From Pseudoxanthomonas sp. Root65 (GTDB lineage Bacteria > Pseudomonadota > Gammaproteobacteria > Xanthomonadales > Xanthomonadaceae): a stretch of 64,000 bases of DNA. Positions within the stretch are counted from its first letter, which is position 1, and every line of letters starts with the position of its first letter. The stretch lies in the NCBI RefSeq assembly GCF_001427635.1, contig NZ_LMHA01000001.1, positions 1,711,133-1,775,132 on the forward strand, read 5' to 3'. This document shows positions 18,609 through 42,885 of this stretch, piece after piece. The notes under the pieces are model-generated. The model saw nothing but the letters and a program-made list of their open reading frames with translations. It was not told where the DNA came from and did no database searches. The position numbers and the translations under genes are program-made.

Positions 18609-18635
18609 GGCGTCCGGATTTCCGAAACTCCTGGG

Positions 18636-18702
18636 TGTGGGAGCGACGTAAGTCGCGATGAAGCTTTACTGGTGGTCCATCGCGACTTACGTCGCTCCCA
18701 CA
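18636..18702. repeat. REP palindrome between the FNR-type gene and cydC
   Basis: Perfect 25-bp arms, 18636-18660 and 18678-18702, beginning TGTGGGAGCGACGTAAG, separated by 17 nt. This is the common GTGGGAGCGACGTAAGTCGC REP of these bacteria in an inverted pair. The right arm overlaps the last codons and the TAA stop of cydC. The hairpin separates two convergent transcripts and may terminate or protect both. Confidence 0.88.
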
Positions 18703-22785: not shown

Positions 22786-22969
22786 CGTCGCCTGCGCGGA
22801 CGGGCGGCGTGGCCGGCGCGCGCGGCTGCGCCGGTGCGTCGTCGAGGATGTCCAGCGCCGGCGTGTCCAGGTCGTCGAACTGGCCCTTGCGTACCGCCCA
22901 CGCGAACGCGGCGATGGCCAGGCCCAGCAGGACCAGGCTGATCGGCAACAGCATCAGCAGGATGTTCAT
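22775..22969 (-). CDS. ccoS: cbb3 oxidase maturation protein CcoS
   Basis: A 64-residue protein with one N-terminal membrane helix followed by the family signature WAVRKGQFDDLD and an acidic, Pro-rich tail. CcoS is required for cofactor insertion into cbb3 oxidase. It overlaps ccoI by 4 nt (ATGA), and its size is typical. Confidence 0.92.
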   Translation of the reverse strand: MNILLMLLPISLVLLGLAIAAFAWAVRKGQFDDLDTPALDILDDAPAQPRAPATPPVRAGDDGA

Positions 22970-25338: not shown

Positions 25339-25346
25339 GGCCGGGC

Positions 25347-25868
25347 TCAGCCGCCTCCGAGCGAAGGTGCCAGCCGCGAGGCCTGCGTCTCCTTCTGCAG
25401 GCGGCCGCGGATGCGCCAGGCGCTGTTCGCGGGCGTGAGCTGCAGGTTCCAGTCGTGCCGCGTGTCGATCTCGGCGGGGGCGGTCCAGCCGGTAGTCGTG
25501 CGCGACAGCGGCAGGCGCAGGTCCTGTGCCGCTTCGGTGGGATGGGTCAGCACCAGCACGAGCGAGGTTTCGCGACCGAACTCGCCGGTCACCGCGGTCA
25601 GTTCCACATGGTCCGGGCGCACCTGCAGGATGGCGCTGAGCTTGCGCTGCGCGGCGCGCTCGTCCGGTCCCAGGTCAGTGGTCTGGATCTGCGACACGCG
25701 CTGCACCTCGTCGATGACGGGATCGGCGCCACCGGCGCGCACGGCGGTGACCACCAGCCAGAGGCCGGCCACGACCGAGGCCAGCGGCAGGCCCCAGACC
25801 AGCCACACCATCGGTTCCTTCCAGAACGGGCGGGCGTTGGCGGCGGAGGCATCGGGTTTCGTGGTCAT
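25347..25868 (-). CDS. ccoH: cbb3 oxidase assembly protein CcoH/FixH
   Basis: A 173-residue protein with a short cytoplasmic N-terminus containing FWKEPMVW, one membrane helix (about residues 22-42) and a periplasmic beta-rich domain, matching FixH/CcoH. CcoH interacts with CcoN and CcoP during assembly. The ATG at 25868 overlaps the ccoG stop by 4 nt. An overlapping upstream open frame is not coding. Confidence 0.85.
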   Translation of the reverse strand: MTTKPDASAANARPFWKEPMVWLVWGLPLASVVAGLWLVVTAVRAGGADPVIDEVQRVSQIQTTDLGPDERAAQRKLSAILQVRPDHVELTAVTGEFGRETSLVLVLTHPTEAAQDLRLPLSRTTTGWTAPAEIDTRHDWNLQLTPANSAWRIRGRLQKETQASRLAPSLGGG

Positions 25869-27487
25869 GGGGAGGGTCCGAAGTAACTGCTGTCCACGGT
25901 CTTCTGCGTGCCGGTATCGACATCGCGGACGGTGAATGTCACGGCATGGCGGCCATGGAGGGTGGCGGGTGCGTTGGCGGTGACGGCCAGCGACAGGACT
26001 TGCTCGGGTTCGGCGCGCACCGTCAGGTCGCCGTCGCGCAGGACGATGCCGGGCGAGTCCGATGCCAGCGTCACGACATAGCGATGCGATTGCTGGTCCT
26101 TGTTGATCAGCTTGAGCGTGTAGCTGTTCTCGACCTGACCTTCGGCGACTTCGCGGTACAGCGCATTGCGGTCGCGCAGCACTTCGGCGATCAGCGCGTC
26201 GCGGTGGAACACGCCCCAGCCCCAGGCCATCACCAGCCCCAGCAGCAGGGCGCCGTAGACGACGATGCGCAGCCGCAGCACCTTCGACGGCTTGCCGTCG
26301 ATGGCGTTCTGGGTGGTGTAGCGGATCAGTCCCTTCGGATAGCCCATCTTGTCCATCACGTCGTCGCAGGCGTCGATGCACGCGCCGCAGGCGATGCACT
26401 CGTACTGCAGTCCGTTGCGGATGTCGATGCCGGTGGGGCAGACCTGCACGCAGATCGTGCAGTCGATGCAGTCGCCCAGCTGGTCCGGGACGAACTTCGG
26501 CAGCGGTTCGATCACCGCGCCGGCACCGGCGAAGGTGATGGTACCGTGCGCACCGAGTCGCTGGTCGGCAGCGCTGGGGTGCGCGTTGGCACGCACCACG
26601 TAGTCGTAGGCGGTGACCTGGTCGAGCAGGCCGCGCGCGCGTTCCAGCACGCTGCCCAGGCCGCGCTTGCGCGGGCCGCGCGGCTCACCGCGCATCGGGT
26701 CGTAGGCGATGATCAGCGTGTTGCGGTCGAACATCGCGCTCTGGAAGCGCGCATACGGACACATGTACTTGCACACCTGCTCGCGCAGGAAACCGGCGAA
26801 GCCCCACGTGGCCAGCGCATAGAACAGCACCCAGAACGTTTCCCAGCCGCCCCAGGCGAACGGCCACAGGCGCGCACCGAGATCGAGGATGGGGGTGAAG
26901 AAGCCGACGAAGGTGAAGCCCGTCCACAGCGCGAACACGGTCCACAGCACGTGCTTGCCGCCCTTGCGCAGCAACTTGTTGGCGCTCCACGGCGCCGCAT
27001 CCAGCTTGATGCGCGCGCTGCGGTCGCCTTCGGTCCAGCGCTCCATCCACAGGAACACTTCCGTCCACACCGTCTGCGGACAGGCATAGCCGCACCACAG
27101 GCGTCCGGCCAGCGCGGTGAAGAAGAACAGCGCCATCGCCGCGATGATCAGCAGCATGGCGAGGAACAGGAAATCCTGCGGCCAGAACACCAGCCCGAAC
27201 ACGTAGAACTTGCGCGCCGGCAGGTCGAACAGCACGGCCTGGCGGTCGTCCCACGGCAGCCACGGGAACAGGTAGTACATGCCCAGCAGCCACCACACCG
27301 CCACCACCCGCAGGCGGTTGAGCCTGCCGGCCACGTCGCGCGGATACACCTTGCGCTCGCTGACATAGAACGCATTGCCCTGCGCATCCACCACGTCCAG
27401 CGGGATGCGCCGTCGGGCGGTGTCGGCAGCGGGCGGCGTCGGCGGTGCTGGCGTGGACATGGGCGGCTCTGTCGTGGCGGGCGTCAT
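25865..27487 (-). CDS. ccoG: cbb3 oxidase accessory protein CcoG (RdxA/FixG), membrane iron-sulfur protein
   Basis: About 540 residues: Pro-rich N-terminus, several membrane helices with the WCGYACPQTVW motif, two 4Fe-4S ferredoxin motifs (DCIDCTICVQVCP and ECIACGACIDACD), a final helix and a periplasmic Ig-like domain. CcoG is a cupric reductase for cbb3 copper delivery. Compared with the usual family pattern there appears to be an extra stretch of about 50-60 residues between the GEPRG motif and the first ferredoxin motif. The start is uncertain because neither ATG (27487, 27460) has a clear ribosome-binding site. It is separated by 49 nt from the preceding gene. Confidence 0.9.
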   Translation of the reverse strand: MTPATTEPPMSTPAPPTPPAADTARRRIPLDVVDAQGNAFYVSERKVYPRDVAGRLNRLRVVAVWWLLGMYYLFPWLPWDDRQAVLFDLPARKFYVFGLVFWPQDFLFLAMLLIIAAMALFFFTALAGRLWCGYACPQTVWTEVFLWMERWTEGDRSARIKLDAAPWSANKLLRKGGKHVLWTVFALWTGFTFVGFFTPILDLGARLWPFAWGGWETFWVLFYALATWGFAGFLREQVCKYMCPYARFQSAMFDRNTLIIAYDPMRGEPRGPRKRGLGSVLERARGLLDQVTAYDYVVRANAHPSAADQRLGAHGTITFAGAGAVIEPLPKFVPDQLGDCIDCTICVQVCPTGIDIRNGLQYECIACGACIDACDDVMDKMGYPKGLIRYTTQNAIDGKPSKVLRLRIVVYGALLLGLVMAWGWGVFHRDALIAEVLRDRNALYREVAEGQVENSYTLKLINKDQQSHRYVVTLASDSPGIVLRDGDLTVRAEPEQVLSLAVTANAPATLHGRHAVTFTVRDVDTGTQKTVDSSYFGPSP

Positions 27488-27536
27488 GCTGGCGCCGCGT
27501 CGGCGCGCGAGGGAGCGACGGGTTGTCGCAGGCCGC

Positions 27537-27833
27537 TCACTCCGGCGGCAGCGCGCGGTTGAAGCGGCTGGCCGGGCGCAGCAGGATCCAGGTGAACAGG
27601 CTGCTGGCGGCGGTCGCCAGCCAGAACATGAAGAAACCCAGCGTGTAGCCGAGTTCGCGGCTGATCGCCAGGTCGGGGAAGGTCATGTCGCGCAGCGTCA
27701 GCGGATCGACGAAGGCGAAGAACACCATCGTCGCCACGCCGGCCGCGAAGAAGCTGGGCCAGAGCACCGCCCCGACGCGCTGCGCGAGCGGCCGGGGCGG
27801 ATGATCGAAGCGGGGCTCGGTGAAGTCGCTCAT
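27537..27833 (-). CDS. small two-helix membrane protein between ccoP and ccoG
   Basis: A 98-residue protein with two hydrophobic helices (about 25-45 and 62-85), an acidic/Pro-rich N-terminus and a basic end. It overlaps the ccoP stop by 4 nt (ATGA), so it is translated with the oxidase. I do not recognise a named family. Its place exactly between structural and assembly genes suggests an accessory subunit or assembly factor for cbb3. It is distinct from CcoQ, which is also present. Confidence 0.75.
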   Translation of the reverse strand: MSDFTEPRFDHPPRPLAQRVGAVLWPSFFAAGVATMVFFAFVDPLTLRDMTFPDLAISRELGYTLGFFMFWLATAASSLFTWILLRPASRFNRALPPE

Positions 27834-28765
27834 TTCGCGCCGGCGGCCGCCTGGCCCTGCTTGTGCGAGAGCGACCAGACGTACGACGCCACCAGCCGCG
27901 CGCGCGTCTCGCCCAGCAGTTCGCGATGGGCCGGCATCACGCCATGGCGTCCGCGGTTGATCGTCGTGCGCAGGCTGTCCTTGCTGTTGCCGTACAGCCA
28001 GTAGTCGTCGGTCAGGTCGGGCGCGCCGAGTTCCTGGTTGCCGGTGCCGTCGGCGCCATGGCAGGCGACGCAGAGGCCGTCGTAGAGCGGTTTGCCCTGC
28101 GCGGCCATGAAGTTGTTCTTCATGCCGGCCTGCGGATCGTTCAACACGTTGACGTAGGCGATGACGTAGTCGACCGCGTTGGGGCCGCCCATGTTGGTCA
28201 GTGCGGTCCCCCATTCCGGCATCACACCCTCGCGGCCGTCCAGCACGCTCTGCAGCACGAGGTCGGGGGTGCCGCCCCAGTGCCAGACGCCATCGGTGAG
28301 GTTGGGATAGCCGATTGCGCCCTGGCCGGTGGAGCCGTGGCAGGTGGCGCAGGTGTTGTTGAAGATGGACTGTCCCAGCGCAAGCGCCTTCGGGTCCTTG
28401 GCCAGCTGGTCGATGGGCTGGTGGGCGAACGGCGCGAAGGTCGCTTCCAGCTTCCTGTCCTGCAAGGCCTTGGCCTGGTCGTGCTCGCCAGTGGAGGACC
28501 ACTTGGCGTATCCCGGAACGATGCCCAGGCCGCCGTACCACGCGATGTAGCCGATGCTGAAGACGATGGTCAGGTAGAACAGGTTGATCCACCACCGCGG
28601 CAGCGGCTTGTTGTACTCGGTCAGGTCGCCGTCCCAGACGTGCGAGGTGTCTTCCGGCGCCGGGTCGCCCGGACGGCGGCGGCCGGTCCACCAGAGCAGC
28701 CACACGCAGCCCAGGATGTTCAGTACGACCAGCGCGACGATGAAACCGATCCAGCCTGCGCTCAT
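27830..28765 (-). CDS. ccoP: cbb3 oxidase subunit III, di-heme cytochrome c
   Basis: A 311-residue membrane-anchored di-heme cytochrome c. It has two N-terminal hydrophobic segments (about 5-27 and 58-80), the latter preceded by the conserved NKPLPRWW motif, then two c-type heme motifs CATCH and CVACH in the periplasm, each with a downstream Met-containing loop. CcoP passes electrons to CcoO and CcoN. The start overlaps the ccoQ stop (ATGA). Confidence 0.96.
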   Translation of the reverse strand: MSAGWIGFIVALVVLNILGCVWLLWWTGRRRPGDPAPEDTSHVWDGDLTEYNKPLPRWWINLFYLTIVFSIGYIAWYGGLGIVPGYAKWSSTGEHDQAKALQDRKLEATFAPFAHQPIDQLAKDPKALALGQSIFNNTCATCHGSTGQGAIGYPNLTDGVWHWGGTPDLVLQSVLDGREGVMPEWGTALTNMGGPNAVDYVIAYVNVLNDPQAGMKNNFMAAQGKPLYDGLCVACHGADGTGNQELGAPDLTDDYWLYGNSKDSLRTTINRGRHGVMPAHRELLGETRARLVASYVWSLSHKQGQAAAGAK

Positions 28766-28902
28766 GGGTTGCTCTCCCCGTCCTCACCCAGCGGCATGCG
28801 CGCCGCATCCTCGAAATCCGCCTTGCGGCGCGGGCTCCAGGCCCACACCCAGCCGGCGATGAACAGCACGATCAGTACCCCGGTCACGATCCCCGATACC
28901 AT
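28762..28902 (-). CDS. ccoQ: cbb3 oxidase small subunit CcoQ
   Basis: A 46-residue protein with one membrane helix (about residues 5-23), the WAWSPRRKADFEDAA segment typical of CcoQ, and an acidic tail. It lies between ccoO (3 nt after its stop) and ccoP (4-nt overlap). CcoQ stabilises the CcoNOP complex. Confidence 0.93.
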   Translation of the reverse strand: MVSGIVTGVLIVLFIAGWVWAWSPRRKADFEDAARMPLGEDGESNP

Positions 28903-28905
28903 GGC

Positions 28906-29526
28906 TCAGCCTCCCCTCGGCGCGGCCTTGCCCAGCCCTTGCAGGTAGGCGACCACGGCGTCCAGTTCTGTCCTGCCCTCCACGTCGGTGGTGGCGTTGT
29001 CGATCTCTTCGTCGCTGTACGGATCGCCGATGCGCTGCAGCGTCTTCATGCGCTGCGCGACCTCGACGCCGTCGACCTTGGCGTTTTCCAGCCAGGGGAA
29101 GGACGGCATGTTCGATTCGGGTACCACGTCGCGCGGATTGATCAGGTGCACGCGATGCCAGTCGTCGGAGTAGCGGCCACCCACGCGGGCCAGGTCCGGC
29201 CCGGTGCGCTTGCTGCCCCACTGGAACGGGCGGTCGTAGACCGATTCGCCGGCCAGCGAGTAGTGGCCGTAGCGCTCGGACTCGAAGCGCAGCGTGCGCA
29301 CCATCTGCGAGTGGCAGTTGTAGCAGCCCTCGCGGATGTAGATGTCGCGGCCGGCGAGCTGCAGCGCAGGGTAGGGCTTCACGCCTTCCAGGGGCTTGAT
29401 CGCCTCGGCCTGGAACATCAGCGGGACGATCTCGGCCAGGCCGCCGAACGACACCGCCACCGCGATCAGCACCGCCATCAGGCCGACGTTCTTCTCGACT
29501 TTCTCGTGTGAATTTCCATTGCTCAT
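28906..29526 (-). CDS. ccoO: cbb3 oxidase subunit II, mono-heme cytochrome c
   Basis: A 206-residue subunit with one N-terminal membrane anchor (about 15-37) and one heme c motif CYNCHSQM, with the distal Met region near SNMPSFPW. These are signature features of CcoO. It follows ccoN by 12 nt. Confidence 0.96.
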
Positions 29527-29538
29527 GTCGTGGGCTCC

Positions 29539-30984
29539 TCAGGCGCGCGCCTGGCTGGCATCGGGCGGCAGGATCGGCTGCGGGGCGGTGGCGCGGGCGC
29601 TGGCGACCTGGAAGGTCTTCCAGGTGTTCCAGGCCATGATCAGCATGCCGGCGAACACCAGCAGGCCGCCGCCCAGCCGCACCAGGTAGTAGGGATAGGT
29701 CGCGTTCAACGCCTCGACGAAGCTGTAGGTCAGCGTGCCGTCAGCGTTGGTGGCGCGCCACATGAGGCCCTGCATCACGCCGGCGATCCACATCGAGGCG
29801 ATGTAGAACACCACGCCCAGCGTGTGCAGCCAGAAGTGCGTGTCGATCGCCTTGACCGAGAACATCTGCTCGCGGCCCAGCAGCTTCGGCAGCAGCGCGT
29901 AGACCGAGCCGATGGTGATCATCGCCACCCAGCCCAGCGCGCCGGCGTGAACGTGGCCGATGGTCCAGTCGGTGTAGTGGCTCAGCGAGTTGACCGTCTT
30001 GATCGACATCATCGGCCCCTCGAACGTGCTCATCATGTAGAACGAGAGCGAGACGATCAGGAACTTCAGGATCGGGTCGGTGCGCAGCTTGTGCCACACC
30101 CCGGACAGCGTCATGACGCCGTTGATGGCGCCGCCCCAGCTGGGCGCGAGCAGGATCAGCGAGAACACCATGCCCAGGCTCTGTGCCCAGTCCGGCAGCG
30201 CGGTGTAGTGCAGGTGGTGCGGACCGGCCCACATGTAGATGGCGATCAGCGCCCAGAAGTGCACGATCGAGAGCCGGTAAGAATAGATCGGGCGGCCGGC
30301 CTGCTTGGGCACGAAGTAGTACATCATCCCGAGGAAGCCGGCGGTCAGGAAGAAGCCCACCGCGTTGTGGCCGTACCACCACTGCACCATCGCATCGACC
30401 GCGCCGCTGTAGACCGGGTACGAATGCAGCAGCCCGCTCGGCAGCGCCAGGCTGTTGACGATGTGCAGCAGCGCCACGGCGATGATGTAGGCGCCGAAGA
30501 ACCAGTTCGCCACGTAGATGTGCTTGACCGCGCGCCGGGCGATGGTGCCGAAGAACAGCACCGCGTAGGACACCCACACCACCGCGATCAGCACGTCGAT
30601 CGGCCAGACCAGCTCGGCGTATTCCTTGCCCTGGGTCAGGCCCAGCGGCAGCGAGACCGCCGCGGCCACGATGACCAGCTGCCAGCCCCAGAACACGAAC
30701 GCGGCCAACCTGTCGGACAGCAACCGCACATGGCAGGTCCGCTGCACCACATGCAGGCTGGTGGCGAACAGCGCGCAGCCGCCGAACGCGAAGATCACCG
30801 CGTTGGTGTGCAGCGGGCGCAGCCGGCCATAGCTCAGCCACGGCACGTCGAAGTTCAGCGCCGGCCAGTACAGCTGGGCGGCGATCAGTACGCCCACGAG
30901 CATCCCCACGATCCCCCAGACCACGGTCATCACCGTGAACTGGCGCACCACCTTGTCGTTGTAAGTCCCCTGGACGCCTTGCAT
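29539..30984 (-). CDS. ccoN: cbb3-type cytochrome c oxidase subunit I
   Basis: A 481-residue catalytic subunit with about 12 membrane helices and the conserved His ligands for heme b, heme b3 and CuB (for example [28 protein letters not shown] and [10 protein letters not shown]). The enzyme reduces oxygen to water at high affinity. AGGAG lies 7 nt before the ATG at 30984; the frame is open upstream but has no signal for initiation. It is first in a 12-gene operon. A perfect FNR box is centred 62 nt before the ATG. Confidence 0.97.
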
Positions 30985-31011
30985 GCGGCCTCTCCTGTTC
31001 TGGTACGGCGG

Positions 31012-31053
31012 ATTCTCGGGACCGGCCGACGGAACCGCATTGATCAGGATCAA
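31012..31053 (-). promoter_or_regulatory. ccoN promoter with FNR/ANR-type box
   Basis: The FNR box (TTGATCAGGATCAA on the plus strand, 31040-31053) is perfect. Reading toward ccoN, a -10-like GAGAAT lies at 31012-31017, exactly 22 nt from the box, giving a -41.5 class II position and a predicted start near 31005. The same box lies 146 nt before the divergent cydA, where it might also act. Confidence 0.75.
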
Positions 31054-31198
31054 CCCCTCGTGGTGGTCGATGGCAGAGGGGGCGCGCGGGAGGCCGGGAG
31101 AGGGAGGGCGAGGCCAGGGAAAGGGGGTGCGACAGACGGTCGCCCCTCGCTGTGACATGACAGGGCTAGAATCCCCGGCAAGGTCCCAGGAGCTCCCC

Positions 31199-32770
31199 AT
31201 GCCCGACATGACCGTTGTCGAACTGTCCCGGCTGCAGTTCGCGCTCACCGCGATGTACCACTTCCTGTTCGTCCCGCTGACGCTGGGGCTCTCCTTCCTG
31301 ATCGCCATCATGGAGAGCGTCTACGTCATGACCGGGCGCGACATCTGGCGGCGCATGACCCTGTTCTGGGGCACGCTGTTCGGCATCAACTTCGCCATGG
31401 GCGTGGCCACGGGCATCGTGATGGAGTTCCAGTTCGGCATGAACTGGTCCTACTACAGCCACTACGTCGGCGACATCTTCGGGGCGCCGCTGGCGATCGA
31501 AGGCCTGATGGCGTTCTTCCTGGAAGCCACCTTCATCGGCCTGTTCTTCTTCGGCTGGGACAAGCTGAGCAAGGTGCAGCACCTGGTGGTGACCTGGCTG
31601 GTGGCGCTGGGGTCCAACTTCTCGGCGCTGTGGATCCTGGTGGCCAACGGCTGGATGCAGAATCCCGTCGGCGCGGTCTTCAATCCCGAGACCATGCGCA
31701 TGGAGATCACCGACTTCATGGCGGTGATCTTCAATCCGGTGGCGCAGGCGAAGTTCGTGCACACCGTATCGGCCGGCTACGTGACCGGTGCGATGTTCGT
31801 CATGGCGATCAGCGCGTTCTACCTGCTGCGCGGCCGCAACGTCGACTTCGCCAAGCGCTCGATGGCGGTGGCCGCCAGCTTCGGCCTGGCCGCGGCGCTG
31901 TCGGTCGTGGTGCTGGGCGACGAGAGCGGCTACGCCACCAGCGAACACCAGAAGATGAAGCTGGCCGCGATCGAGGCGATGTGGGAGACCGAACCCGCGC
32001 CGGCTGGTTTCAACGCCTTCGCGCTTCCCGACCAGAAGAACCAGACCAACCATTACGCGCTGCACATCCCGTACGTGATGGGACTGATCGGCACGCGCTC
32101 GTTCACTACCGAGATGCCGGGCATCCTGGACCTGGTGGAACGCGCCGAGGGCCGCATCCGCAACGGCCTGCTGGGCTACGAGGCGCTGCAGACGCTGCGC
32201 GCCAACAAGCACGACGGCACTGCGCGGCAGGTCTTCGAGGCGCACTGGCGCGACATCGGCCACGCCCTGCTGCTGAAGCGCTACCGCGAGGACATCGGCA
32301 ACGCCACCGAGGAGGAGATCGTGCGTGCCGCGCACGACACCGTGCCGCACGTGGCGCCACTGTTCTGGAGCTTCCGGCTGATGGCGGGGCTGGGCTTCTA
32401 TTTCATCGCCTTCTTCGCGGTGGCGTTCTACCTGGCCAGCCGGCAGCGGCTGGACCGCTACCGGTGGTTCCTGAAGGTGGCGTTCTGGAGCCTGCCGTTG
32501 CCGTGGCTGGCGATCGAAGCCGGTTGGCTGATCGCCGAGTACGGGCGGCAGCCATGGATCATCGACGGCGTGCTGCCCACGTTCCTCGCCGCGTCCGGAC
32601 TGCAGCTGCACCAGGTCGTGATCTCGCTCACCGGCTTCGTGCTGGTCTACACGGTGCTGGCGATCATCGAGGTGTGGCTGATGCGCAAGCTGATCCTCAA
32701 GGGCCCCGAGCATCTGTCGGCGCCGCAGCCCGATGGGGAAGGCGTACCACAACCGGCCCCGGCGGGCTGA
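31199..32770 (+). CDS. cydA: cytochrome bd ubiquinol oxidase subunit I
   Basis: A 523-residue subunit with about nine membrane helices. His21 (AMYHFL) and a second His in [10 protein letters not shown] are heme ligands, and the [21 protein letters not shown] stretch and following region form the long, E. coli-type Q loop with the [12 protein letters not shown] segment. It oxidises ubiquinol and reduces oxygen without pumping protons. AGGAG lies 6 nt before the ATG. A possible -10 TAGAAT is at 31167-31172. It is divergent from ccoN and heads the cydABX operon. Confidence 0.97.
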
Positions 32771-32782
32771 CGGGAGAGACGC

Positions 32783-33928
32783 ATGGACACGATTCCGCTC
32801 GACTACGCCACGCTGCGCCTGATCTGGTGGCTGCTGCTGGGCATCCTGCTGATCGGCTTCGCGGTGATGGACGGTTTCGACCTGGGCGTGGCGACGCTGC
32901 TGCCCGCAGTGGCGCGCACCGACGAAGAGCGCCGCATCGTGCTGAACGTCATCGGTCCGGTGTGGGAAGGCAATCAGGTGTGGCTGATCCTCGGCGGCGG
33001 CGCGATCTTCGCCGCGTTCCCGCCGCTGTATGCGGTCAGTTTTTCCGGGTTCTACCTGGCGATGTTCCTGATCCTGTTCGCGCTGATCCTGCGGCCGGTC
33101 GGCTTCAAGTTCCGCAGCAAGGTGCCCGATCCACGCTGGCGCGCCGCGTGGGACTGGTCGCTGTTCGTCAGCGGGCTGGTGCCGGCGCTGGTGTTCGGCG
33201 TGGCGATGGGCAACGTGCTGCTGGGCGTGCCGTTCCACTTCGACGACACCCTGCGGATCTTCTACGAAGGCGGGCTGTTCGGCCTGCTGACGCCGTTCGC
33301 GCTGCTGTGCGGCCTGGTCAGTGTGGCGATGCTGGTGATGCACGGCGCCGGCATGCTGGCGATGAAGACCTCCGGCGACATCGCGCTGCGTGCGCGCCGC
33401 TACGGCAGCCTTGCGGCGCTGGCGACGGCGGTGCTGTTCGTGATCGGCGGCCTGTGGGTCGCGCGCATCGACGGCTATGCGCTGCAGGTGGCGATGGACC
33501 CCGCCGGCGCCTCGAATCCGCTGGCCAAGGTGGTGGTCGCGCAGCCCGGCGCGTGGATGGACAACTACGCGCGCTGGCCGCTGGCGTGGCTGCTGCCGGG
33601 GCTAGGCGTGGCGGGTGCGTTGCTGAGTGCGCTGCTGTTGCGTGCCGGGCGCGCCGGGCAGGCCTTCCTGTCGTCGGCGACCAGCATCACCGCCATCATC
33701 CTGACCCTGGGCGTGGCGGCGTTTCCGTTCCTGCTGCCGTCGTCCACACAACCCGGTTCCAGCCTGACGCTGTGGGACGCCTCGTCCAGCCACATGACGC
33801 TCTTCATCATGCTGCTGGCCACGGCGTTCTTCCTGCCCATCGTGCTGCTCTACACCGCCTGGGTCTTCCGCGTGCTGCGCGGCAAGGTCGACCAGCACGG
33901 CATGGGCCGCAACCCCAACGCGTACTGA
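32783..33928 (+). CDS. cydB: cytochrome bd ubiquinol oxidase subunit II
   Basis: A 381-residue integral membrane subunit with eight or nine helices and the family motifs [26 protein letters not shown] and a C-terminal [12 protein letters not shown]. It pairs with CydA to form cytochrome bd. It follows cydA by 12 nt, and its stop is next to the cydX ribosome-binding site. Confidence 0.97.
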
Positions 33929-35713: not shown

Positions 35714-35753
35714 CTAATGGGTGCTTAACTTCGGGCTAATTGAGCCTTAATCC
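35714..35753 (+). promoter_or_regulatory. four half-sites at 11-bp period, PmrA/QseB-type operator array
   Basis: TAA triplets occur at 35715, 35726, 35737 and 35748, each within a C(T)TAA(T/C) context: CTAAT, CTTAAC, CTAAT and CTTAAT. The 11-bp direct-repeat spacing is that of OmpR-family regulators and closely resembles the PmrA box YTTAAK-N5-YTTAAK. The array ends 12 nt before the first ATG of the seven-gene cluster, whose penultimate gene encodes a regulator of this type. Confidence 0.6.
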
Positions 35754-35765
35754 AGCGCTTCCAGC

Positions 35766-36434
35766 ATGCCCGCCATGCACTGGATCCGCTCCCACATCGC
35801 CCTCGCGCCGCTGCCCGGCCGGTTCGTCAGCGTCCACCTGCTCGACCGGGACGATCCCGGTCGCGGCGAGGTGGAAGCCTTCATCGCCCGCGTCTACCAC
35901 GACCGCTACGGCGCGACGCTGCGGACGTTCTTCCCGCACCTGCTCGCCTACCGCGACAGCGATGGCCGTCTCGCCGCCGCGGTCGGCATCCGCGCCGGCG
36001 GCGAGGGGCCGCTGTTCGTCGAACATTACCTGGACGCGCCGGTGGAACAGGCCATGGCGCAGCGCCACGTCGCCCGGGTGGACCGGCAGCGCGTGGTCGA
36101 GGTCGGCAACTTTGCTGCCACGTCGCCGGGCATCGCCCGCGAACTGATCCTGCAGCTCGCGCTGACCCTGCAGTCGGCCGGCATGGACTGGGTGTTGCTG
36201 GTGGCCACGCAGCAGCTGCGCAACGCCTTCGAGCGCCTGCGCCTGCCGATGGTGGAGCTGGCCGAAGCGCGCGCCGAGCGGCTGGGCGACAGCGGCGGCG
36301 ACTGGGGCCGCTATTACGCCTCTCGGCCGCGGCTGATCTGCGGCAACCTCGCCGATGGCGTCGCCTACCTGCGTGGTACGCAGCGGCCGCCGGCCTGCGT
36401 GGGCCTGGATCTCTGCCTGGCGGGCACGCCATGA
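35766..36434 (+). CDS. thermostable hemolysin family protein (N-acyltransferase-like)
   Basis: A 222-residue protein matching the thermostable hemolysin family (T_hemolysin), which I recall as belonging to the N-acetyltransferase-like fold group together with autoinducer synthases. The central segment VVEVGNFAATSPG and the following helix resemble the acyl-donor-binding core. No signal peptide is present, arguing against a classical secreted hemolysin. A second in-frame ATG at 35775 is equally plausible; neither has a strong ribosome-binding site. It overlaps the next gene by 4 nt (ATGA). In this context an acyl-transfer step in making a small molecule is a more attractive role than hemolysis, but that is inference. 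Confidence 0.8.
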   Translation: MPAMHWIRSHIALAPLPGRFVSVHLLDRDDPGRGEVEAFIARVYHDRYGATLRTFFPHLLAYRDSDGRLAAAVGIRAGGEGPLFVEHYLDAPVEQAMAQRHVARVDRQRVVEVGNFAATSPGIARELILQLALTLQSAGMDWVLLVATQQLRNAFERLRLPMVELAEARAERLGDSGGDWGRYYASRPRLICGNLADGVAYLRGTQRPPACVGLDLCLAGTP

Positions 36435-37936
36435 CGCGGCCGATGGATATCGTGCTGCGCAGCGCCGGTGATCGCGCCGTGCCGCGCGTGATCACGGCGC
36501 AGGGTGCGCTGGACGATCGCGCACTGGCGGCGCGGATCGACGCGCTGGTCATGTGGCTGGCCAAGACCGGCATGCGCCGCGTCGCCAGCCGTCTGGACAA
36601 CGGGCCGTCCTGGTTCGTGCTGGACCTGGCGCTGCGCGAGGTCGGCGGCGTGCACGTGCCGCTGCCGATGTTCTTCTCCGAGGCGCAGATGCGGCACGCA
36701 CTGGCCAACAGCGGCGCGCAATGCGTGGTCACCGCGCGCGAGGACGCCATGCCGCCGGGTGCGGAAGCGCTGACCGGATTCGTCGACGGCGAACGCCTGG
36801 CCTGCTGGCGTACGCCGGCCGACGGGTCATCGGCGGCCCCCCTGCCGGCGCGCACGGCGTGCATCACCTACACCTCCGGCACCACCGGCCGGCCGCGCGG
36901 CGTGTGCCTGGACGCGGACACCCTGTTCACCGTCGCGGCCTCGCTGGTGGATGCCGCTGCGATCATCGCGCCGCGCCGCCACCTGTGCCTGATGCCGCTG
37001 GCGACGCTGCTGGAAAACGTGGCCGGCCTGTACGCCACGCTGCTGGCCGACGCCGAGATCGCGCTGCCGTCCTTGACGGAGATCGGCTACACCGGCGCCA
37101 CCGGCCTGGACGTGCCCACGCTGCTGCGCTGCCTGCACCGCTACCAGCCGGAGAGCGTGATCCTGGTGCCGCAGCTGTTGCTGGCGCTGGTGATGGCGGC
37201 CGAGCAGGGCGCGCCGTTGCCGGCGTCGCTGCGCTATATCGCGGTCGGCGGTGGCCGCGTCGGGCCTGGCCTGCTGAAGCGCGCCCGCGCGCTCGGCATG
37301 CCGGTGTTCGAAGGCTATGGCCTGACCGAGTGCGGATCGGTGGTATGCCTGAACCGGCCGGACGCCCTGCGCGATGGCAGCGTCGGGCGTCCGCTGCCGC
37401 ATGCGCGGGTCTCGCTGATCGACGGCGAGCTCTGCGTCGACGGCGCGCGTGCGCTGGGCTACCTCGGCGGCGAATCCCTGCCGGACGGGCCGGTGCGCAC
37501 CGGCGACCTGGGCCATCGCGACGACGACGGCTTCATCCACATCACCGGCCGCCGCAAGAACGTCTTCATCACCGCGTTCGGTCGCAACGTGTCGCCCGAA
37601 TGGGTCGAGAGCGAACTGCTCGCGCATCCGGCCATCGGCCAGGCCGTGGTCTGGGGCGAAGGCCAGGCGGACAACGTGGCGGTGCTGGTGCCGCGCCGCG
37701 CCGACCTCGACGACACGCGCCTGCGTCGCGCCCTGGCCGAGGTCAACGCGGGGCTGCCCGACTACGCGCGCGTGGCGCGCTTCGTGCGTGCGGCCGCCCC
37801 CTTCACTGCCGACGCCGGCCTGCTGACCGCCAATGGCCGGCCGCGACGCGACGCGATCCTGTCCCGCTACCAGGCCGATGTCGATGCCTGCTACCAGCGT
37901 CCCCCCAACGCCTTGCCTGCCGGAGTTCCCGCATGA
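36431..37936 (+). CDS. AMP-forming acyl-CoA synthetase/ligase
   Basis: A 501-residue ANL-superfamily enzyme. The P-loop motif ITYTSGTTGRPRGV, GYGLTECGS and TGDLGHRDDDGF are intact. The hinge and C-terminal domain follow (ITGRRKNVFITAFGRNVSPE). At the A10 position, where family members usually have a catalytic lysine, the sequence reads LLTANGRPRRD, an apparent Lys-to-Arg change. The enzyme should at least adenylate a carboxylic acid, probably fatty. It is coupled at both ends by ATGA overlaps to the hemolysin-family and diiron genes. No carrier protein is encoded nearby, so CoA, AMP or the next enzyme would be the acceptor. Confidence 0.88.
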   Translation: MTRPMDIVLRSAGDRAVPRVITAQGALDDRALAARIDALVMWLAKTGMRRVASRLDNGPSWFVLDLALREVGGVHVPLPMFFSEAQMRHALANSGAQCVVTAREDAMPPGAEALTGFVDGERLACWRTPADGSSAAPLPARTACITYTSGTTGRPRGVCLDADTLFTVAASLVDAAAIIAPRRHLCLMPLATLLENVAGLYATLLADAEIALPSLTEIGYTGATGLDVPTLLRCLHRYQPESVILVPQLLLALVMAAEQGAPLPASLRYIAVGGGRVGPGLLKRARALGMPVFEGYGLTECGSVVCLNRPDALRDGSVGRPLPHARVSLIDGELCVDGARALGYLGGESLPDGPVRTGDLGHRDDDGFIHITGRRKNVFITAFGRNVSPEWVESELLAHPAIGQAVVWGEGQADNVAVLVPRRADLDDTRLRRALAEVNAGLPDYARVARFVRAAAPFTADAGLLTANGRPRRDAILSRYQADVDACYQRPPNALPAGVPA

Positions 37937-38607
37937 GTTTCCATGACGCGCTGGTCGCCCAGACCACGCACGAACGCAATGGGCTGCTGTCCATTCCGAT
38001 CATCCAGTCGGCGCTGGCCGGCCGCATCGCGCGCGACGACTACGTCGCCTTCCTCACCCAGGCCTTCCACCACGTCCGCCACACCGTGCCGCTGCTGATG
38101 GCCTGCGGCGCGCGCCTGCCGGCGCGCCTGGAGTGGCTGCGCACGGCGGTGGGCGAGTACATCGACGAGGAGATGGGCCACCACGAGTGGGTGCTGGACG
38201 ACATCGCCGCCTGCGGCGAGGACCGCGCCGCCGCGCAAGCGTCCGCGCCGTCGCTGGCGACCGAACTGATGGTCAGCTACGCCTACGACACCATCCAGCG
38301 CGGCAACCCGGTCGCCTTCTTCGGCATGGTGCTGGTGCTGGAAGGCACCAGCGTGGCGCTGGCCACGCGTGCGGCCAACACGATCCAGCAATCGCTGGAC
38401 CTCCCACGCAACGCCTTCAGCTACCTGCTTTCGCATGGCGACCTGGACATCGAGCACGTCGGCTTCTTCCGGCAGCTGATGGATCGCATCGACGACCCCG
38501 CCGACCAGGCCGCCATCGTGCACGCGGCGCGCCGCTTCTACGTGCTCTACGGCGACATCTTCCGCACCCTGCGCGACGGCGGTGTGCGCCTGGCGGAAGC
38601 CGCATGA
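37933..38607 (+). CDS. heme-oxygenase-like diiron oxidase family protein (iron-containing redox enzyme)
   Basis: A 224-residue all-helical protein of the TenA/PqqC/heme-oxygenase-like fold. Candidate iron ligands are the Glu and His in EYIDEEMGHHEW, the Glu in VLEGTS and the Asp/Glu/His in LDIEHVGFF, the arrangement of heme-oxygenase-like diiron oxidases such as UndA. Members of this group do oxidative decarboxylation, N-oxygenation and C-C cleavage in natural product pathways. The gene is coupled by 4-nt overlaps to the ligase and dehydrogenase genes, so it likely acts on the ligase product or its derivative. The exact reaction is unknown. Confidence 0.8.
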   Translation: MSFHDALVAQTTHERNGLLSIPIIQSALAGRIARDDYVAFLTQAFHHVRHTVPLLMACGARLPARLEWLRTAVGEYIDEEMGHHEWVLDDIAACGEDRAAAQASAPSLATELMVSYAYDTIQRGNPVAFFGMVLVLEGTSVALATRAANTIQQSLDLPRNAFSYLLSHGDLDIEHVGFFRQLMDRIDDPADQAAIVHAARRFYVLYGDIFRTLRDGGVRLAEAA

Positions 38608-39446
38608 TGGACCTCGCCGGCAGGACCGTGATCGTCACCGGTGCCAGTGGGGGTATCGGCGTGCCGCTGTGTGCGGCGCTGCTCACCGCCGGTGCGCACG
38701 TGCTGGCCGTGGGGCGCGACGAAGCCAGGCTGCGTCGCCTCGCCCAGCAACTGCCCGCCGGGCGCCTGTCATGGGCGGTGGGCGATGTCGCGACCGAAGA
38801 AGGCCGCGCGCGCGTGCTCGACGCCGCGCATGCCGCCCGTCCCACGCCGTCGGTACTGGTGCTTGCGCACGCGCAGGCCGCGTTCGGCCTGTTCGAGGAC
38901 CAGTCGCCGGAGGAGATGGCGCGGCTCATGCAGACCAACCTGGTGGCGCCGATGCTGCTGGTGCATGGCTTGCTGCCGGTACTGCGCATGCATGCGATGT
39001 CGTCGGTCGTCGTGGTCGGTTCGACCTTCGGCAGCCTGGCGTTTCCCGGTTTCGCCGCGTACAGCGCCAGCAAGTTCGGCCTGCGCGGACTGACCGAAGC
39101 GCTGGCGCGCGAGTACGCCGATACGTCGCTGCGATTCCAGTACCTGTCACCGCGCGCCACCCGCACGCCGTTCAACACGCCGGCGGTCGATGCCCTCAAT
39201 GCCGAACTGAAGGTGGCCAGCGATGCGCCCGCCGAGGTCGCGCGCCAATTGATCGCCGCGATCACCCAGGGCACCTCGCGGCTGCAGCTCGGCTGGCCGG
39301 AAAAACTGTTCGCACGCCTCAACGGGCTGGTACCCGGTCTGGTCGACCGCAACCTGCGCGCCAGCCTGCCCATCGTCCGTCGCCACGCGCGACGATCCCG
39401 CCCGTCTGCTGTCGAGACCCTTCGTCATGAACCTCAATCACGGTAA
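38604..39446 (+). CDS. short-chain dehydrogenase/reductase
   Basis: A 280-residue SDR with the cofactor motif TGASGGIG near residue 14, an NLVAP segment and the Ser-Tyr-Lys triad in GSTFGSL and YSASKFG. The last 80 residues resemble the membrane-associated DltE-like or fatty acyl-reductase-linked SDRs, with LFARLNGLVPGLVDR as an amphipathic end. It probably reduces a keto or aldehyde intermediate. The start overlaps the diiron gene stop (ATGATG; 38604 or 38607). Its end overlaps the next gene by 20 nt. Confidence 0.86.
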   Translation: MMDLAGRTVIVTGASGGIGVPLCAALLTAGAHVLAVGRDEARLRRLAQQLPAGRLSWAVGDVATEEGRARVLDAAHAARPTPSVLVLAHAQAAFGLFEDQSPEEMARLMQTNLVAPMLLVHGLLPVLRMHAMSSVVVVGSTFGSLAFPGFAAYSASKFGLRGLTEALAREYADTSLRFQYLSPRATRTPFNTPAVDALNAELKVASDAPAEVARQLIAAITQGTSRLQLGWPEKLFARLNGLVPGLVDRNLRASLPIVRRHARRSRPSAVETLRHEPQSR

Positions 39447-40092
39447 GTCCATGCTCTTCCTTCTCCTCATGTCCACCGCGCTGGTCGTCGGCATCGCGAT
39501 GGCCGCCGAACCTGGCGCCACCACCGCCACCCAGGTGCGCGACCGCTGGGCGCAGATCAACTACCAGGTGCCGAAGGCGCAGCGCGAATCGGCCTTCGAG
39601 GACCTGCTGCACCAGGCCGAGAAGATCCGCCAGGCGCATCCGCGCGACGCGTCCGCGCTGATCTGGGAAGGCATCGTGCTGTCGAGCCTGGCCGGCGAGA
39701 AAGGCGGCGTGGGCGCGCTGGGGCTGGTGAAGCGCGCGCGTGCCGACTTCGAGGCGGCCATCCAGATCGCGCCCGATGCGCTCGATGGTGCGGCCTATAC
39801 CAGCCTCGGCGCGCTGTACTACCAGGTGCCCGGCTGGCCGCTCGGCTTCGGCGATGACGACACCGCACGCACGATGCTGCGCAAGGGACTGGCGATCGAT
39901 CCGGACGGCATCGACGCCAACTACTTCTACGCCGACTTCCTGCGCGACCAGAAGGACTGGGCCGGCGCGCGCACCGCGTTCCAGAAGGCACTGGCGGCGC
40001 CGGCGCGTCCCGGCCGCGAGGTCGCCGACGCCGGTCGCCGCCAGGAAGCGCAGACCCGCTTGAAAGACGTCAACACCCATCTTGCGCACTGA
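39427..40092 (+). CDS. exported TPR-like protein of the acyl-ligase cluster
   Basis: A 221-residue protein with an N-terminal signal peptide ending in AMAAE (about residue 27). The rest is helical with TPR-like repeats (for example AEKIRQAHPRDASALIWEG and the segment around NYFYADFLRDQKDWAGA). This family is often annotated as a tetratricopeptide hypothetical protein. It overlaps the SDR gene by 20 nt and lies 24 nt before the response regulator. A periplasmic adaptor or sensor-partner role is possible, but I have no direct evidence. Confidence 0.72.
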   Translation: MNLNHGKSMLFLLLMSTALVVGIAMAAEPGATTATQVRDRWAQINYQVPKAQRESAFEDLLHQAEKIRQAHPRDASALIWEGIVLSSLAGEKGGVGALGLVKRARADFEAAIQIAPDALDGAAYTSLGALYYQVPGWPLGFGDDDTARTMLRKGLAIDPDGIDANYFYADFLRDQKDWAGARTAFQKALAAPARPGREVADAGRRQEAQTRLKDVNTHLAH

Positions 40093-40116
40093 GGGGGTGC
40101 CGACCAGACTGGCCAC

Positions 40117-40791
40117 ATGCGCATCCTGCTGGTGGAAGACGACCTGTCGCTGGGCGAAGGCATCCGGACCGCGTTGCGGCGCGGTGCCTTCGCCGTCGAC
40201 TGGGTGCAGGACGGTGCCAGCGGCCTGCTGGCGGCACGCGACGGCGGCTTCGATCTGGTCGTACTGGACTTGGGGCTGCCGCGGATGGATGGCATCGAGG
40301 TGATCCGCCAGTTGCGCGCCGCCGGCGACGCGGTGCCCATCCTCGTGCTCAGCGCCCGCGAGCGTCCGGCCGATCGCACGCTCGGCCTGGATGTCGGCGC
40401 GGACGACTACCTGGGCAAGCCGTTCGATACCGCCGAGTTGCTCGCACGCGTGCGCGCGCTGATCCGGCGCAGCGCGGGCCGCGCGCATCCTTCGCTGGAA
40501 TCGGGCCCGCTGCGGCTGGATCCCGCCGCACTCACCGCCACCTGGAAAGGGCGTCCGCTCGACCTGACCCGGCGCGAGTTCGCCCTGTTGCGCGTGCTGA
40601 TGGAGCAGCGCGGTCGGCCGATGGCGCGCGAGGCCATCCAGCAGCACCTGTACGGCTGGGATGCCGATGTCGCCAGCAACGCCGTCGATGTGCATGTCCA
40701 CCAGCTCCGCCGCAAGCTGGAGCCCGGCATCATCCGCACCGTGCGCGGCCTGGGGTATGCGCTGGGCGATCTCGCCGGAGACGCGGCATGA
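40117..40791 (+). CDS. OmpR-family response regulator (PmrA/QseB-like)
   Basis: A 224-residue regulator with a receiver domain (acidic pair in LLVEDDLSLGEG, phospho-acceptor Asp in VVLDLGLPRMDG, conserved Thr/Ser and the Lys in GKPF) and a winged-helix DNA-binding domain with the NAVDVHVHQLRRKL recognition segment. Sequence and partner kinase resemble PmrA/QseB. It overlaps the kinase by 4 nt and is the probable reader of the 11-bp repeat array upstream of the cluster (35714-35753), which would make the whole operon self-regulated. Confidence 0.9.
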   Translation: MRILLVEDDLSLGEGIRTALRRGAFAVDWVQDGASGLLAARDGGFDLVVLDLGLPRMDGIEVIRQLRAAGDAVPILVLSARERPADRTLGLDVGADDYLGKPFDTAELLARVRALIRRSAGRAHPSLESGPLRLDPAALTATWKGRPLDLTRREFALLRVLMEQRGRPMAREAIQQHLYGWDADVASNAVDVHVHQLRRKLEPGIIRTVRGLGYALGDLAGDAA

Positions 40792-42176
40792 GGTCGATGC
40801 GCGCGACCCTGCTGTGGCTGTTGCTGGGCGCGCTGGCGGTGGTGATGGCGGCCGCCGGCCTGCTCAGCTATCGCGCCGGCCTGCAGGAAGCCGGCGAGAT
40901 GTTCGATGCGCGCCTGGTGCAGTCCACGCGCGTGCTGGTGAGCCTGGTCGATGAGCCGCTCAGCGAACTCAACGCCTATCCGGGCGAACCGATCGTGCTG
41001 CGGGGCTGGCATGGCGAGGCGCATGGCGTCGGCGAGGCGCTGGCGTTCGACGACGGGCATGCCTACGAGAACAAGCTGGCGTTCCAGGTCTGGGATGCGC
41101 AGCGCCGCCTGCTGTTGCGCTCGGACAGCGCGCCCGTGCGTCCGCTGGCGACGTTGCGGGCGGGTTACGAGGACGTGGTGGTGGATGGCGCGCACTGGCG
41201 CGCGTTCACGCTGCAATCGCCGAACGGCCGCTGGTTCCAGTCCGCCGAACGCACCGACATCCGCGAGGAACTCGCCGGCGATATCGCCGGCGGTACGCTG
41301 CTGCCGCTGCTGCTGTCGCTGCCGCTGATCGCGCTGGTGGTCTGGTGGAGCGTCGCGTTGGCGACGCGTTCGCTGCGGCGGATATCGCACGAGATCGGCC
41401 AGCGCGATCCGGAACGGCTGGCGCCGCTGGATCCGGCCGACGTGCCGCAGGAAGCGCGCGGCCTGGTCGACGCCATCAATGGCCTGCTGCACCGCCTGGA
41501 CATCGCGTTGGCACGCGAGCGCACCTTCGTGGCCGACGCCGCGCACGAGCTGCGCACGCCGATCAGCGCATTGAAGGTGCATGCCGACAACGCGCGTCAC
41601 GCCCGCGACGATGAGGAGCGCGATGCCTCGCAGCAGCAACTGGCGGCCAGCGTGCTGCGCGTCGAGCGCCTGGTCGCCCAACTGCTGTCATTGAGCCGCG
41701 CCGAAAGCACGGGACGTGTTCTCGAACGCGCGCGCCTGGACCTGGCGGCGCTGGCAGGCACCGAGATCGATGCGGCGCGGCCCTTGCTCGATGCCAGGAG
41801 CCAGGTGCTGCGGCTCGACCTGCAACCCGTACAGGTGTCCGGCGACGAGGTCGCCCTCGGCCTGCTGGTGCGCAACCTGGTGGAAAATGCCGCACGCCAC
41901 GCACCCGCCGGCGCCATCATCGCGGTGCGCACGTGGAAGAGCGGCGAGAAGGCCTTCCTTGCGGTCGAAGACAGCGGCCCGGGCATTCCCGAGGAGGAGC
42001 GCGAGCGCGTGTTCGACCGCTTCTACCGCCGGTTGGGCAGCCACCACGAGGGCAGCGGGCTGGGCCTGGCGATCGTCAAGGAAGTGGTCATCACGCATGC
42101 CGGCACGATCCGGCTGGCGCCGTCGTCGCAGCTTGGCGGCCTGGCCGTGTCGGTGGAACTGCCGGGCCTGGCCTGA
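40788..42176 (+). CDS. sensor histidine kinase (QseC/PmrB-like)
   Basis: A 462-residue kinase with two membrane helices (about residues 7-27 and 162-185) flanking a periplasmic sensor of about 130 residues, then HAMP, the His-box DAAHELRTPISALK, and a catalytic domain with the N box NLVENAARH and G boxes DSGPGIP and GSGLGLAIV. The N-terminal sensor is the 2CSK_N type typical of QseC-like kinases. It is the last gene of the seven-gene cluster. The ligand is unknown; a product of the cluster is a testable guess. Confidence 0.9.
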   Translation: MRSMRATLLWLLLGALAVVMAAAGLLSYRAGLQEAGEMFDARLVQSTRVLVSLVDEPLSELNAYPGEPIVLRGWHGEAHGVGEALAFDDGHAYENKLAFQVWDAQRRLLLRSDSAPVRPLATLRAGYEDVVVDGAHWRAFTLQSPNGRWFQSAERTDIREELAGDIAGGTLLPLLLSLPLIALVVWWSVALATRSLRRISHEIGQRDPERLAPLDPADVPQEARGLVDAINGLLHRLDIALARERTFVADAAHELRTPISALKVHADNARHARDDEERDASQQQLAASVLRVERLVAQLLSLSRAESTGRVLERARLDLAALAGTEIDAARPLLDARSQVLRLDLQPVQVSGDEVALGLLVRNLVENAARHAPAGAIIAVRTWKSGEKAFLAVEDSGPGIPEEERERVFDRFYRRLGSHHEGSGLGLAIVKEVVITHAGTIRLAPSSQLGGLAVSVELPGLA

Positions 42177-42194: not shown

Positions 42195-42644
42195 TCAGCG
42201 CGGCGCCACGGCGGACAGCCGCTTGCGCATGCACACCGCTGACGCCGGGCAGAGCGAATGGAATTCCGCGGAAGCCTGCAGTGCGGCAGGCGCCTGCTCC
42301 CGAGGCAGTGCTTCAAATGCCTGCAGGGTGAAGAAGCGCTCCGCGGTCTGCGTCAGCAGATACAGGGCATCGATCTCCTGCAGCCGCGCTTCGGTTTCCA
42401 GTGCCGCCACCAGCCGGCGCGCGATGCCCTGGCCCTGGTACGCGGGCGCCACGGCGAGCGAGCGCAGCAGGCCTGCCTGGCCGAAGCGCTGCAAGCCGAT
42501 GACGCCGGCCAATGCACCGTCGCGCTCGTCGACGAGGAACGTCGCCATCGCATCCGCCAGATCCTCCGTCGGCAGCGACGATTGCGTCAGCAGCGCCAGG
42601 ATGCGCGGCAGGTCGTCGTCGGTCGCGGTGCGGATCGTGGTCAT
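42195..42644 (-). CDS. ArsN2-like GNAT acetyltransferase
   Basis: A 149-residue GNAT enzyme with the acetyl-CoA-binding motif VAPAYQGQGIARRL and the C-terminal ending LCPASAVCMRK, which is characteristic of ArsN2-type proteins found with arsenic-resistance genes. GAGGA lies 6 nt before the ATG. No ars operon is nearby, so the arsenic link is only by family. It is convergent with the sensor-kinase gene. The 241 nt between its start and moeA hold no clear feature. Confidence 0.82.
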   Translation of the reverse strand: MTTIRTATDDDLPRILALLTQSSLPTEDLADAMATFLVDERDGALAGVIGLQRFGQAGLLRSLAVAPAYQGQGIARRLVAALETEARLQEIDALYLLTQTAERFFTLQAFEALPREQAPAALQASAEFHSLCPASAVCMRKRLSAVAPR

Positions 42645-42885
42645 GCGGGTTCCTCGGGCAGGGGCAGGGTCATCGGAGCCGCGGTCGTGCACCGCCGTGC
42701 GCAGTGCGCCGGGGCGGAACTCAGGGCGGGGCGCGGCCAAGGCCGCAAGGACGGCGCTCGTTTACATGATGCCGGAACAGGGGAATCATCAGGTCGCTCA
42801 TGGCTCACGCAGCGGTCGGCGGTTTGGCAAGCGCGCACGGTGGCACTAGGCTGCCCGGCATCTGGGTTCGTAAGAGCGAGAGGCA

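Follow-up and report, generated by a model that had tools for sequence, protein, structure and literature searches.

What does a gene of the "thermostable hemolysin" family do at the head of an operon of metabolic enzymes? The question is raised by a locus of Pseudoxanthomonas sp. Root65, where seven open reading frames (ORFs) lie tightly coupled and in one orientation on the + strand, at 35766-42176 of a 64,000-nt stretch of contig NZ_LMHA01000001.1 (the window; the genome comprises 3.89 Mb in six contigs). By the ORF list and Pfam they encode the hemolysin-family protein (TH), an AMP-forming acid ligase (AMP), a heme-oxygenase-like diiron oxidase (HDO), a short-chain dehydrogenase/reductase (SDR), a tetratricopeptide-repeat (TPR) protein, a response regulator (RR) and a sensor histidine kinase (HK) (Table 1). 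The original prediction, made from the sequence alone, had given the places and families of these genes correctly, and the observation proves stronger than it was first put. It had also described coupling of the enzyme genes by 4-nt overlaps, followed by further overlaps or a 24-nt gap. The ORF coordinates agree: TH/AMP, AMP/HDO, HDO/SDR and RR/HK overlap by 4 nt (HDO/SDR by only 1 nt if SDR starts at 38607), the SDR and TPR genes overlap by 20 nt, and 24 nt separate TPR from RR.

We think, on balance, that the operon encodes a pathway, induced by an envelope signal, that makes a small molecule or lipid of acyl origin. The direct basis of this reading is gene order, co-occurrence, intact catalytic residues, a gene fusion, the exchange of one enzyme for another and promoter repeats; from these we infer the chemical steps and the binding of the regulator. 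A short pathway to an acyl-derived small molecule had been suggested before. The gene set is indeed held together, coupled and accompanied by a sensor pair, but it has turned out not to be new to print. If the pathway is biosynthetic, then a metabolic enzyme is at present counted in genomes as a "hemolysin virulence factor".

Conservation of the gene set

We compared 109 entries, namely the window and 108 fetched loci selected for carrying TH or HDO (L numbers denote fetched loci, G numbers genomes); L081 duplicates L038, and L105 and L135 have common upstream DNA. ORFs were called mechanically, so that N termini may be overlong and a few odd gene orders, for example AMP ahead of TH, are spurious. 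TH, AMP, HDO and SDR are contiguous on one strand in 83 of the 109 entries. All seven genes follow in the same order in 51, and TPR precedes SDR in 5 more. An arrangement that recurs this often is no chance effect. Loci fetched from a scan of named genomes were the best 80 of at least 584 confirmed stretches and therefore lean towards relatives of the window; these 80 carry gamma-, beta- or zetaproteobacterial or unplaced proteobacterial names. Among the matches listed, the closest named HDO relatives are from Pseudoxanthomonas (92% and 90%).

Within a sample of the class, 29 of 274 genomes carried TH, counting that of the window. The other 28 loci were fetched, and AMP and SDR lie near TH in 25 of them, TPR in 24 and HDO in 23; TH, AMP, HDO and SDR are all present in 23, including L058 with a shortened HDO. 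Two fetched loci, L036 and L043, are truncated where their contig stops. Similar co-occurrence was seen among 299 genomes of Pseudomonadota, with TH in 67, HDO in 68 (E 1e-25) and both in 65, that is, in 65 of the 70 genomes with either gene. The exceptions are G391 and G514 (TH without HDO) and G445, G502 and G506 (HDO without TH). The two genes are 1.9-2.4 kb apart on one contig in 60 of the 65 genomes and on different contigs in the other five.

HDO matches were also detected in 25 plasmid records, three of them weak or partial (Methylibium, Deefgea, Methylosinus), and the five-gene core was present in all 5 plasmid regions inspected (Pseudoalteromonas, Vibrio parahaemolyticus, Citrobacter freundii, Variovorax and Novosphingobium, where AMP is joined to HDO). 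The presence of TH in 16 of 38 species of the window's genus, its own included, indicates that the gene set is accessory. Pairwise distances of the seven proteins correlate with r 0.80-0.91 (59 loci; species relatedness not removed), a correlation that cannot separate enzymes from sensors since the values for RR and HK are as high as those for the enzymes. Whether the enzyme genes stay together in relatives, a check proposed with the original prediction, can thus be answered: they do in most loci, the exceptions being L048, L056, L059, L060 and L211. In Xanthomonas phaseoli (L066) TH matches in two pieces and SDR has no match at the printed threshold; this copy may be decaying. Alpha-, beta-, gamma- and zetaproteobacterial records all show this gene order, with at least 584 confirmed stretches in one scan, and the label at its head is probably misleading.

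Table 1. Features of the operon and its promoter in the window
Feature	Position	Strand	Basis
Promoter box, four YTAA half-sites, 11-bp period (CTAA-TTAA-CTAA-TTAA)	35714..35750	+	predicted to be bound by the RR of this operon
TH, "thermostable hemolysin" family PF12261, predicted acyltransferase	35766..36434	+	Pfam T_hemolysin 3.5e-58
AMP, AMP-forming acid ligase, Arg at usual A10 Lys	36431..37936	+	Pfam AMP-binding 1.1e-44
HDO, heme-oxygenase-like diiron oxidase, PF14518	37933..38607	+	Pfam Haem_oxygenas_2 1.4e-31
SDR, classical SDR reductase	38604 (or 38607)..39446	+	Pfam adh_short 2.3e-35; NF006565
TPR protein, probably periplasmic, distantly like BstC / TatT	39427..40092	+	Pfam TPR, weak repeats
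RR, OmpR/PhoB-type response regulator, QseB/PmrA-like	40117..40791	+	Pfam Response_reg + Trans_reg_C
HK, sensor histidine kinase, QseC-like	40788..42176	+	Pfam 2CSK_N + HisKA + HATPase_c

The hemolysin label and the enzymes

TH scored 196.7 bits against PF12261 T_hemolysin (cut-off 27), and R107 and W180 are each conserved in 100, E112 and E86 each in 99 of 101 sequences. No signal peptide was seen when the N terminus was inspected by eye; leaderless export is possible. In profile-profile comparisons of TH with 41 families, FeeM (N-acyl amino acid synthases) came first with P 1.1e-4, a weak match (probability 56%, 98 columns). Next by score were LuxI (23.0, P 0.013) and the OlsB-type Acetyltransf_5 (22.6, P 0.0057), and the best unrelated control reached 21.9 (P 0.019). 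In both runs the alignments of FeeM and LuxI with TH covered the region around E112, whereas that of Acetyltransf_5 did so only in the first, smaller-profile run and lay elsewhere, over 32 columns, in the larger-profile run. A profile search of solved structures with TH gave nothing usable (two histone matches at E 1), and NCBIfam gave no match. Pfam keeps TH apart from these weakly similar acyltransferases. The protein looks like an enzyme, and the comparison makes it a candidate acyltransferase. The doubt about the hemolysin label raised in the original prediction gains support from the N terminus as inspected, the four conserved residues and the weak FeeM match.

Two further observations concern TH genes elsewhere. 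Second copies occur in two genomes of one genus (L220, 8795-10523; L221, 9264-10924), directly before a radical S-adenosylmethionine (SAM) gene. That gene matches ArsS in L220 (459 bits), near an arsenite-methyltransferase-like gene below its family cut-off, and was identified by eye in L221. A TH gene is also among Aeromonas transcripts captured in a ciliate (PMC5183988; papers cited by PMC number are represented throughout by their accessible parts).

The remaining enzymes largely retain their catalytic residues. HDO keeps E80, H83, E137, H168, D172 and H175 in 102-103 of 103 sequences, and this six-ligand pattern (E, H, E, H, D, H) we take to be a diiron site. By family and ligands HDO is predicted to be an O2-using diiron oxidase; its nearest solved structure is 3dde, a domain of unknown function (E 3.9e-22), followed by MboA (E 0.0024). 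AMP keeps the core motifs S149, G150, D359 and R374 in 102 of 104 sequences, and its nearest solved structures are nonribosomal peptide synthetase (NRPS) adenylation domains and OSB-CoA ligases. In SDR the catalytic S140, Y153 and K157 are present in 102 of 102 sequences and N112 in 101; the protein scored 317 bits against NF006565 (cut-off 238) and lies closest to FabG-like reductases among solved structures. Heme-oxygenase-fold diiron oxidases, whose chemistry is reviewed in the introduction of PMC13185094, also occur in the small biosynthetic operons of UndA, BesC, SznF and MboA (mangotoxin). Those clusters have other partner genes, and the likeness to UndA, BesC and SznF is one of description.

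The TPR protein has a signal-like N terminus (by inspection). Its nearest solved structures are designed TPR proteins and BstC (7t1s, E 1.6e-8), and a TatT match was found on the L144 relative. Its score of 44.4 bits against the BstC sterol-transporter model NF045602 is far under the cut-off of 350 and covers only part of the protein, and a sterol link was dropped. Next to TPR there is a SAM methyltransferase gene in Novosphingobium (L144) and in another genome (L213) by Pfam, and a similar protein was recognised in L212 by eye.

AMP and HDO form one protein in Novosphingobium pentaromativorans (L144) and in L214 (G507). HDO was not found by profile search in the L059 locus or in the genomes of L059 and L211, and this absence is credible because the same profile detects HDO in 68 genomes. 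L059 has a TauD gene inside the operon (1.8e-27), and in the gammaproteobacterial L211 a TauD gene (6.8e-33) comes after TH and AMP, with two class-III aminotransferases and an amidase behind it; identity between these TauDs is 39%. Since TauD stands beside TH and AMP in these two loci without HDO, oxygenase chemistry rather than the HDO fold appears to be what the pathway needs. The oxygenase product may be a carbonyl that is then reduced or aminated. L058 (4733-9446) has an internally shortened HDO (155 aa), and cytochrome-like genes (by eye) lie between its TH and AMP.

In the pathway that we propose, the AMP-forming ligase would activate a carboxylic acid, and HDO, working with the ligase, would use O2 to oxidise the activated acid and leave a carbonyl, a step that TauD would carry out in some lineages. 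SDR would reduce that carbonyl; two aminotransferases stand in its place in the divergent L211. TH, taken as an enzyme resembling FeeM-type N-acyl transferases and not as a toxin, would attach an acyl group to an acceptor that is most probably an amine, and the TPR protein would carry or present the product in the periplasm.

Promoter repeats and changing sensors

The functional unit starts upstream of the TH gene, at the promoter box. This box has one match in the window and none in 100 shuffles, and the three-copy YTAA form has no other match in the genome. The TH start is uncertain, with ATG 35766 just 15 nt past the box and ATG 35775 possible too. Among 15 TH-bearing congeners, at least two copies of the half-site are present in 14, at least three in 12 and all four in 9. 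Three strict half-sites miss most other lineages and the two-copy form recovers them: a YTAA-N7-YTAA pair was found in 50 of the 61 loci with a downstream RR-HK pair, compared to 1.4 expected (49 of 60 distinct loci), and in 7 of 33 loci without one. The RR-HK loci lacking it are L049, L059, L066, L106, L107, L108, L114, L118, L120, L136 and L140. Shuffles kept dinucleotides in the two-copy scan and single-base composition in the strict scan and the 61-locus count. The four-copy promoter repeat and its recurrence before RR-HK loci are new here.

The 11-bp direct repeats resemble what we take to be a PmrA box. RR matched the QseB model with 9e-70 and 234.8 bits (cut-off 345) and HK the QseC model with 2e-70 and 237.7 bits (cut-off 475); QseBC and PmrAB give the best models for the pair, all below curated cut-offs, and differ in that the window pair is tied to an enzyme operon. 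Consistent with the suggestion that the enzymes have their own sensor and regulator, which the promoter repeats support, the RR-HK pair very likely regulates the operon. The kinase would report an envelope or metal signal, and the regulator would bind the direct repeats and induce the operon. The promoter box offers a direct route to operon induction, and the fusion and oxygenase swap make the chemistry testable.

The two-component system (TCS) is the least constant part of the locus: some loci have a different TCS on the upstream side, others a pair of NtrC-like type or neighbouring FecR/TonB-receptor genes. Where a different TCS lies upstream, TTNAC repeats occur in 5 of 6 distinct loci (6 of 7 before duplicate removal), and they occur in none of the 61 RR-HK loci; one of the 6 also has a YTAA pair. 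Sigma-54-like sites were seen in six loci only (3 of 12 NtrC-like and 3 of 21 others), and again in none of the 61. Some loci with other sensors thus carry other promoter boxes, and the enzymes are constant while the sensors change. A quorum-sensing circuit, with the kinase beside a LuxI-like synthase, was set aside because the kinase is not constant and nothing shows product sensing. An ExxE motif near the first membrane segment of HK (E34 in 73%, E37 in 63% of 59) was not counted as metal sensing.

Published traces and competing explanations

The claim that no product has been described stands as far as the literature touching parts of the cluster goes, since no pathway product is named in its accessible parts (subscription journals were mostly outside the search), but the set itself is partly in print. 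Pseudoalteromonas carrageenovora PCAR9_p0005-p0014 (PMC6262041) has the same genes in the same order with an FTR1 system; we inspected another record of this species. There it is read as a potential virulence cluster, conserved in 24 Pseudoalteromonas genomes, with counterparts named for Vibrio alginolyticus and Nautella and with activation by iron suggested, and the accessible text carries no diiron-oxidase or biosynthetic reading. In Pseudomonas alcaligenes AVO110 exposed to fungal exudate, the AMP-binding gene was up 389-fold, the iron-containing redox enzyme 373-fold, SDR 318-fold, TPR 107-fold and the response regulator 38-fold, with TH not in the list (PMC8304167, Table 4). VP1729, VP1731 and VP1735 are named in PMC10469919. 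The V. cholerae dth (delta-thermostable hemolysin) region likewise places an adenylate-forming enzyme gene, dthC (VCA1110), beside a TH gene, although it is named as a hemolysin region; the comparison follows the description in PMC12208996 and covers the dthC/TH adjacency only. The dthC mutant made C15:0 and not C17:0 from fed C13:0, which points weakly to an acyl substrate.

Several findings weigh against an acyl pathway built around TH. The LuxI and Acetyltransf_5 scores lie barely above the unrelated control, and the FeeM match is itself weak. In AMP the A10 position is Arg in 95 of 104 sequences and Lys in 3, this lysine being, we presume, normally needed for adenylation by ANL ligases; AMP has the ANL-ligase fold, but we lower the claim of activity because of the replacement. 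HDO is absent genome-wide from G265 (L048), G133 (L056) and G213 (L060), and no replacement was seen in those loci. TH adjoins neither AMP nor SDR in L056 and stands with TPR only in L060, and TH may therefore act without the rest of the set. No exporter is constant in the gene set across loci. From the literature, acs1 and prpE mutants, unrelated to dthC, likewise made C15:0 and no C17:0, and the authors of PMC12208996 offer indirect causes; those of PMC8304167 take the P. alcaligenes genes as fatty-acid beta-oxidation; and PMC6262041 cites the V. alginolyticus thermostable hemolysin as toxic to zebrafish.

If the product were instead a modified aminolipid kept in the envelope and not secreted, TH would be OlsB-like, catalysing N-acylation, and the TPR protein would shuttle lipid. 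Such membrane-lipid remodelling is possible but falls well short of probable. The QseBC/PmrAB-like sensor, the PmrA-like direct repeats, the resemblance of the TPR protein to lipid-binding BstC and the third rank by score of Acetyltransf_5 among the 41 families would all fit, as would phosphoethanolamine transferase-like proteins near some copies (neighbour families c7 and c8, identified by eye, as were c5 and c10). Acetyltransf_5, however, scores little more than the controls, and no OlsA-like second acyltransferase was seen in the gene set. To our knowledge, an O2-dependent diiron oxidase would also be unusual in aminolipid remodelling. A role for the product as a metallophore or in the handling of iron we consider unlikely, despite a cupredoxin, an FTR1 permease and a barrel-like protein that closely follow HK in 18 loci, while L045 and L051 each have two of these genes (Pfam on the L053 members only; barrel reading by eye). 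The P. carrageenovora record annotates a cupredoxin and an iron transporter there, and the suggested iron activation in PMC6262041 points the same way. Sigma factor, FecR and TonB-receptor genes follow the Novosphingobium copy (L144), and L215 adjoins FecR as well as a TonB receptor whose STN match is sub-threshold. No such transporter or receptor is listed for most of the 109 entries, the window included, where no receptor was seen by eye beside the set, and the gene set holds no hydroxamate, catechol or NRPS enzyme. FTR1 could be explained otherwise, because HDO itself needs iron.

If the set let the cell use fatty or other acids from outside, the proposal made for P. alcaligenes, this would account for AMP and SDR, which are common in beta-oxidation, and for the strong induction by fungal exudate. 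The cluster's fadD is said in PMC8304167 to be essential for growth in exudate, and PMC6344628, evidently the screen for that mutant, reports it as outcompeted there (the accessible text gives no fadD locus). Since acyl-CoA dehydrogenase, hydratase and thiolase are lacking from the core set, and TH, HDO and the TPR protein are out of place in beta-oxidation, we regard catabolism as improbable. Least probable of all, and very unlikely in our judgement, is a virulence cluster around a protein hemolysin. The family name, the "potential virulence cluster" of PMC6262041, the zebrafish toxicity and the linking of VP1735 to VP1729 by network analysis (PMC10469919) speak for it. On the other side, TH shows no signal peptide by inspection and an enzyme-like residue conservation. 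The set is also present in records of Mariprofundus, Gallionella, Methylotenera and Polynucleobacter, which are known for harmless lifestyles, and the V. cholerae haemolysin reportedly makes no direct contribution to virulence, going by the title alone of Fallarino 2002.

The preferred reading, an envelope-induced acyl pathway, can be extended, tentatively and with considerable doubt. A Pseudomonadota-wide pathway might make an undescribed N-acylated signal, lipid or metallophore through a LuxI/FeeM-type synthase that bears a toxin's name, with heat-stable hemolysis coming from an amphiphilic product and not from the protein. The cassette would be fixed and its oxygenase interchangeable (HDO or TauD), and lineages would have re-wired it repeatedly to different envelope sensors.

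Some neighbouring genes were noted in passing. A PNPOx-type gene and a radical SAM gene adjoin the operon in L035 (2127-3564, by Pfam) and L111 (251-1725, by eye). In the window, an ArsN2 arsenic-resistance N-acetyltransferase gene (154 bits, cut-off 125) lies at 42198-42647 on the - strand, convergent with HK. Just upstream of the operon, at ~17800-33900, Fnr-, cydDC-, cbb3 oxidase cluster- and cydAB-like genes (by eye) would form a low-oxygen respiration island.

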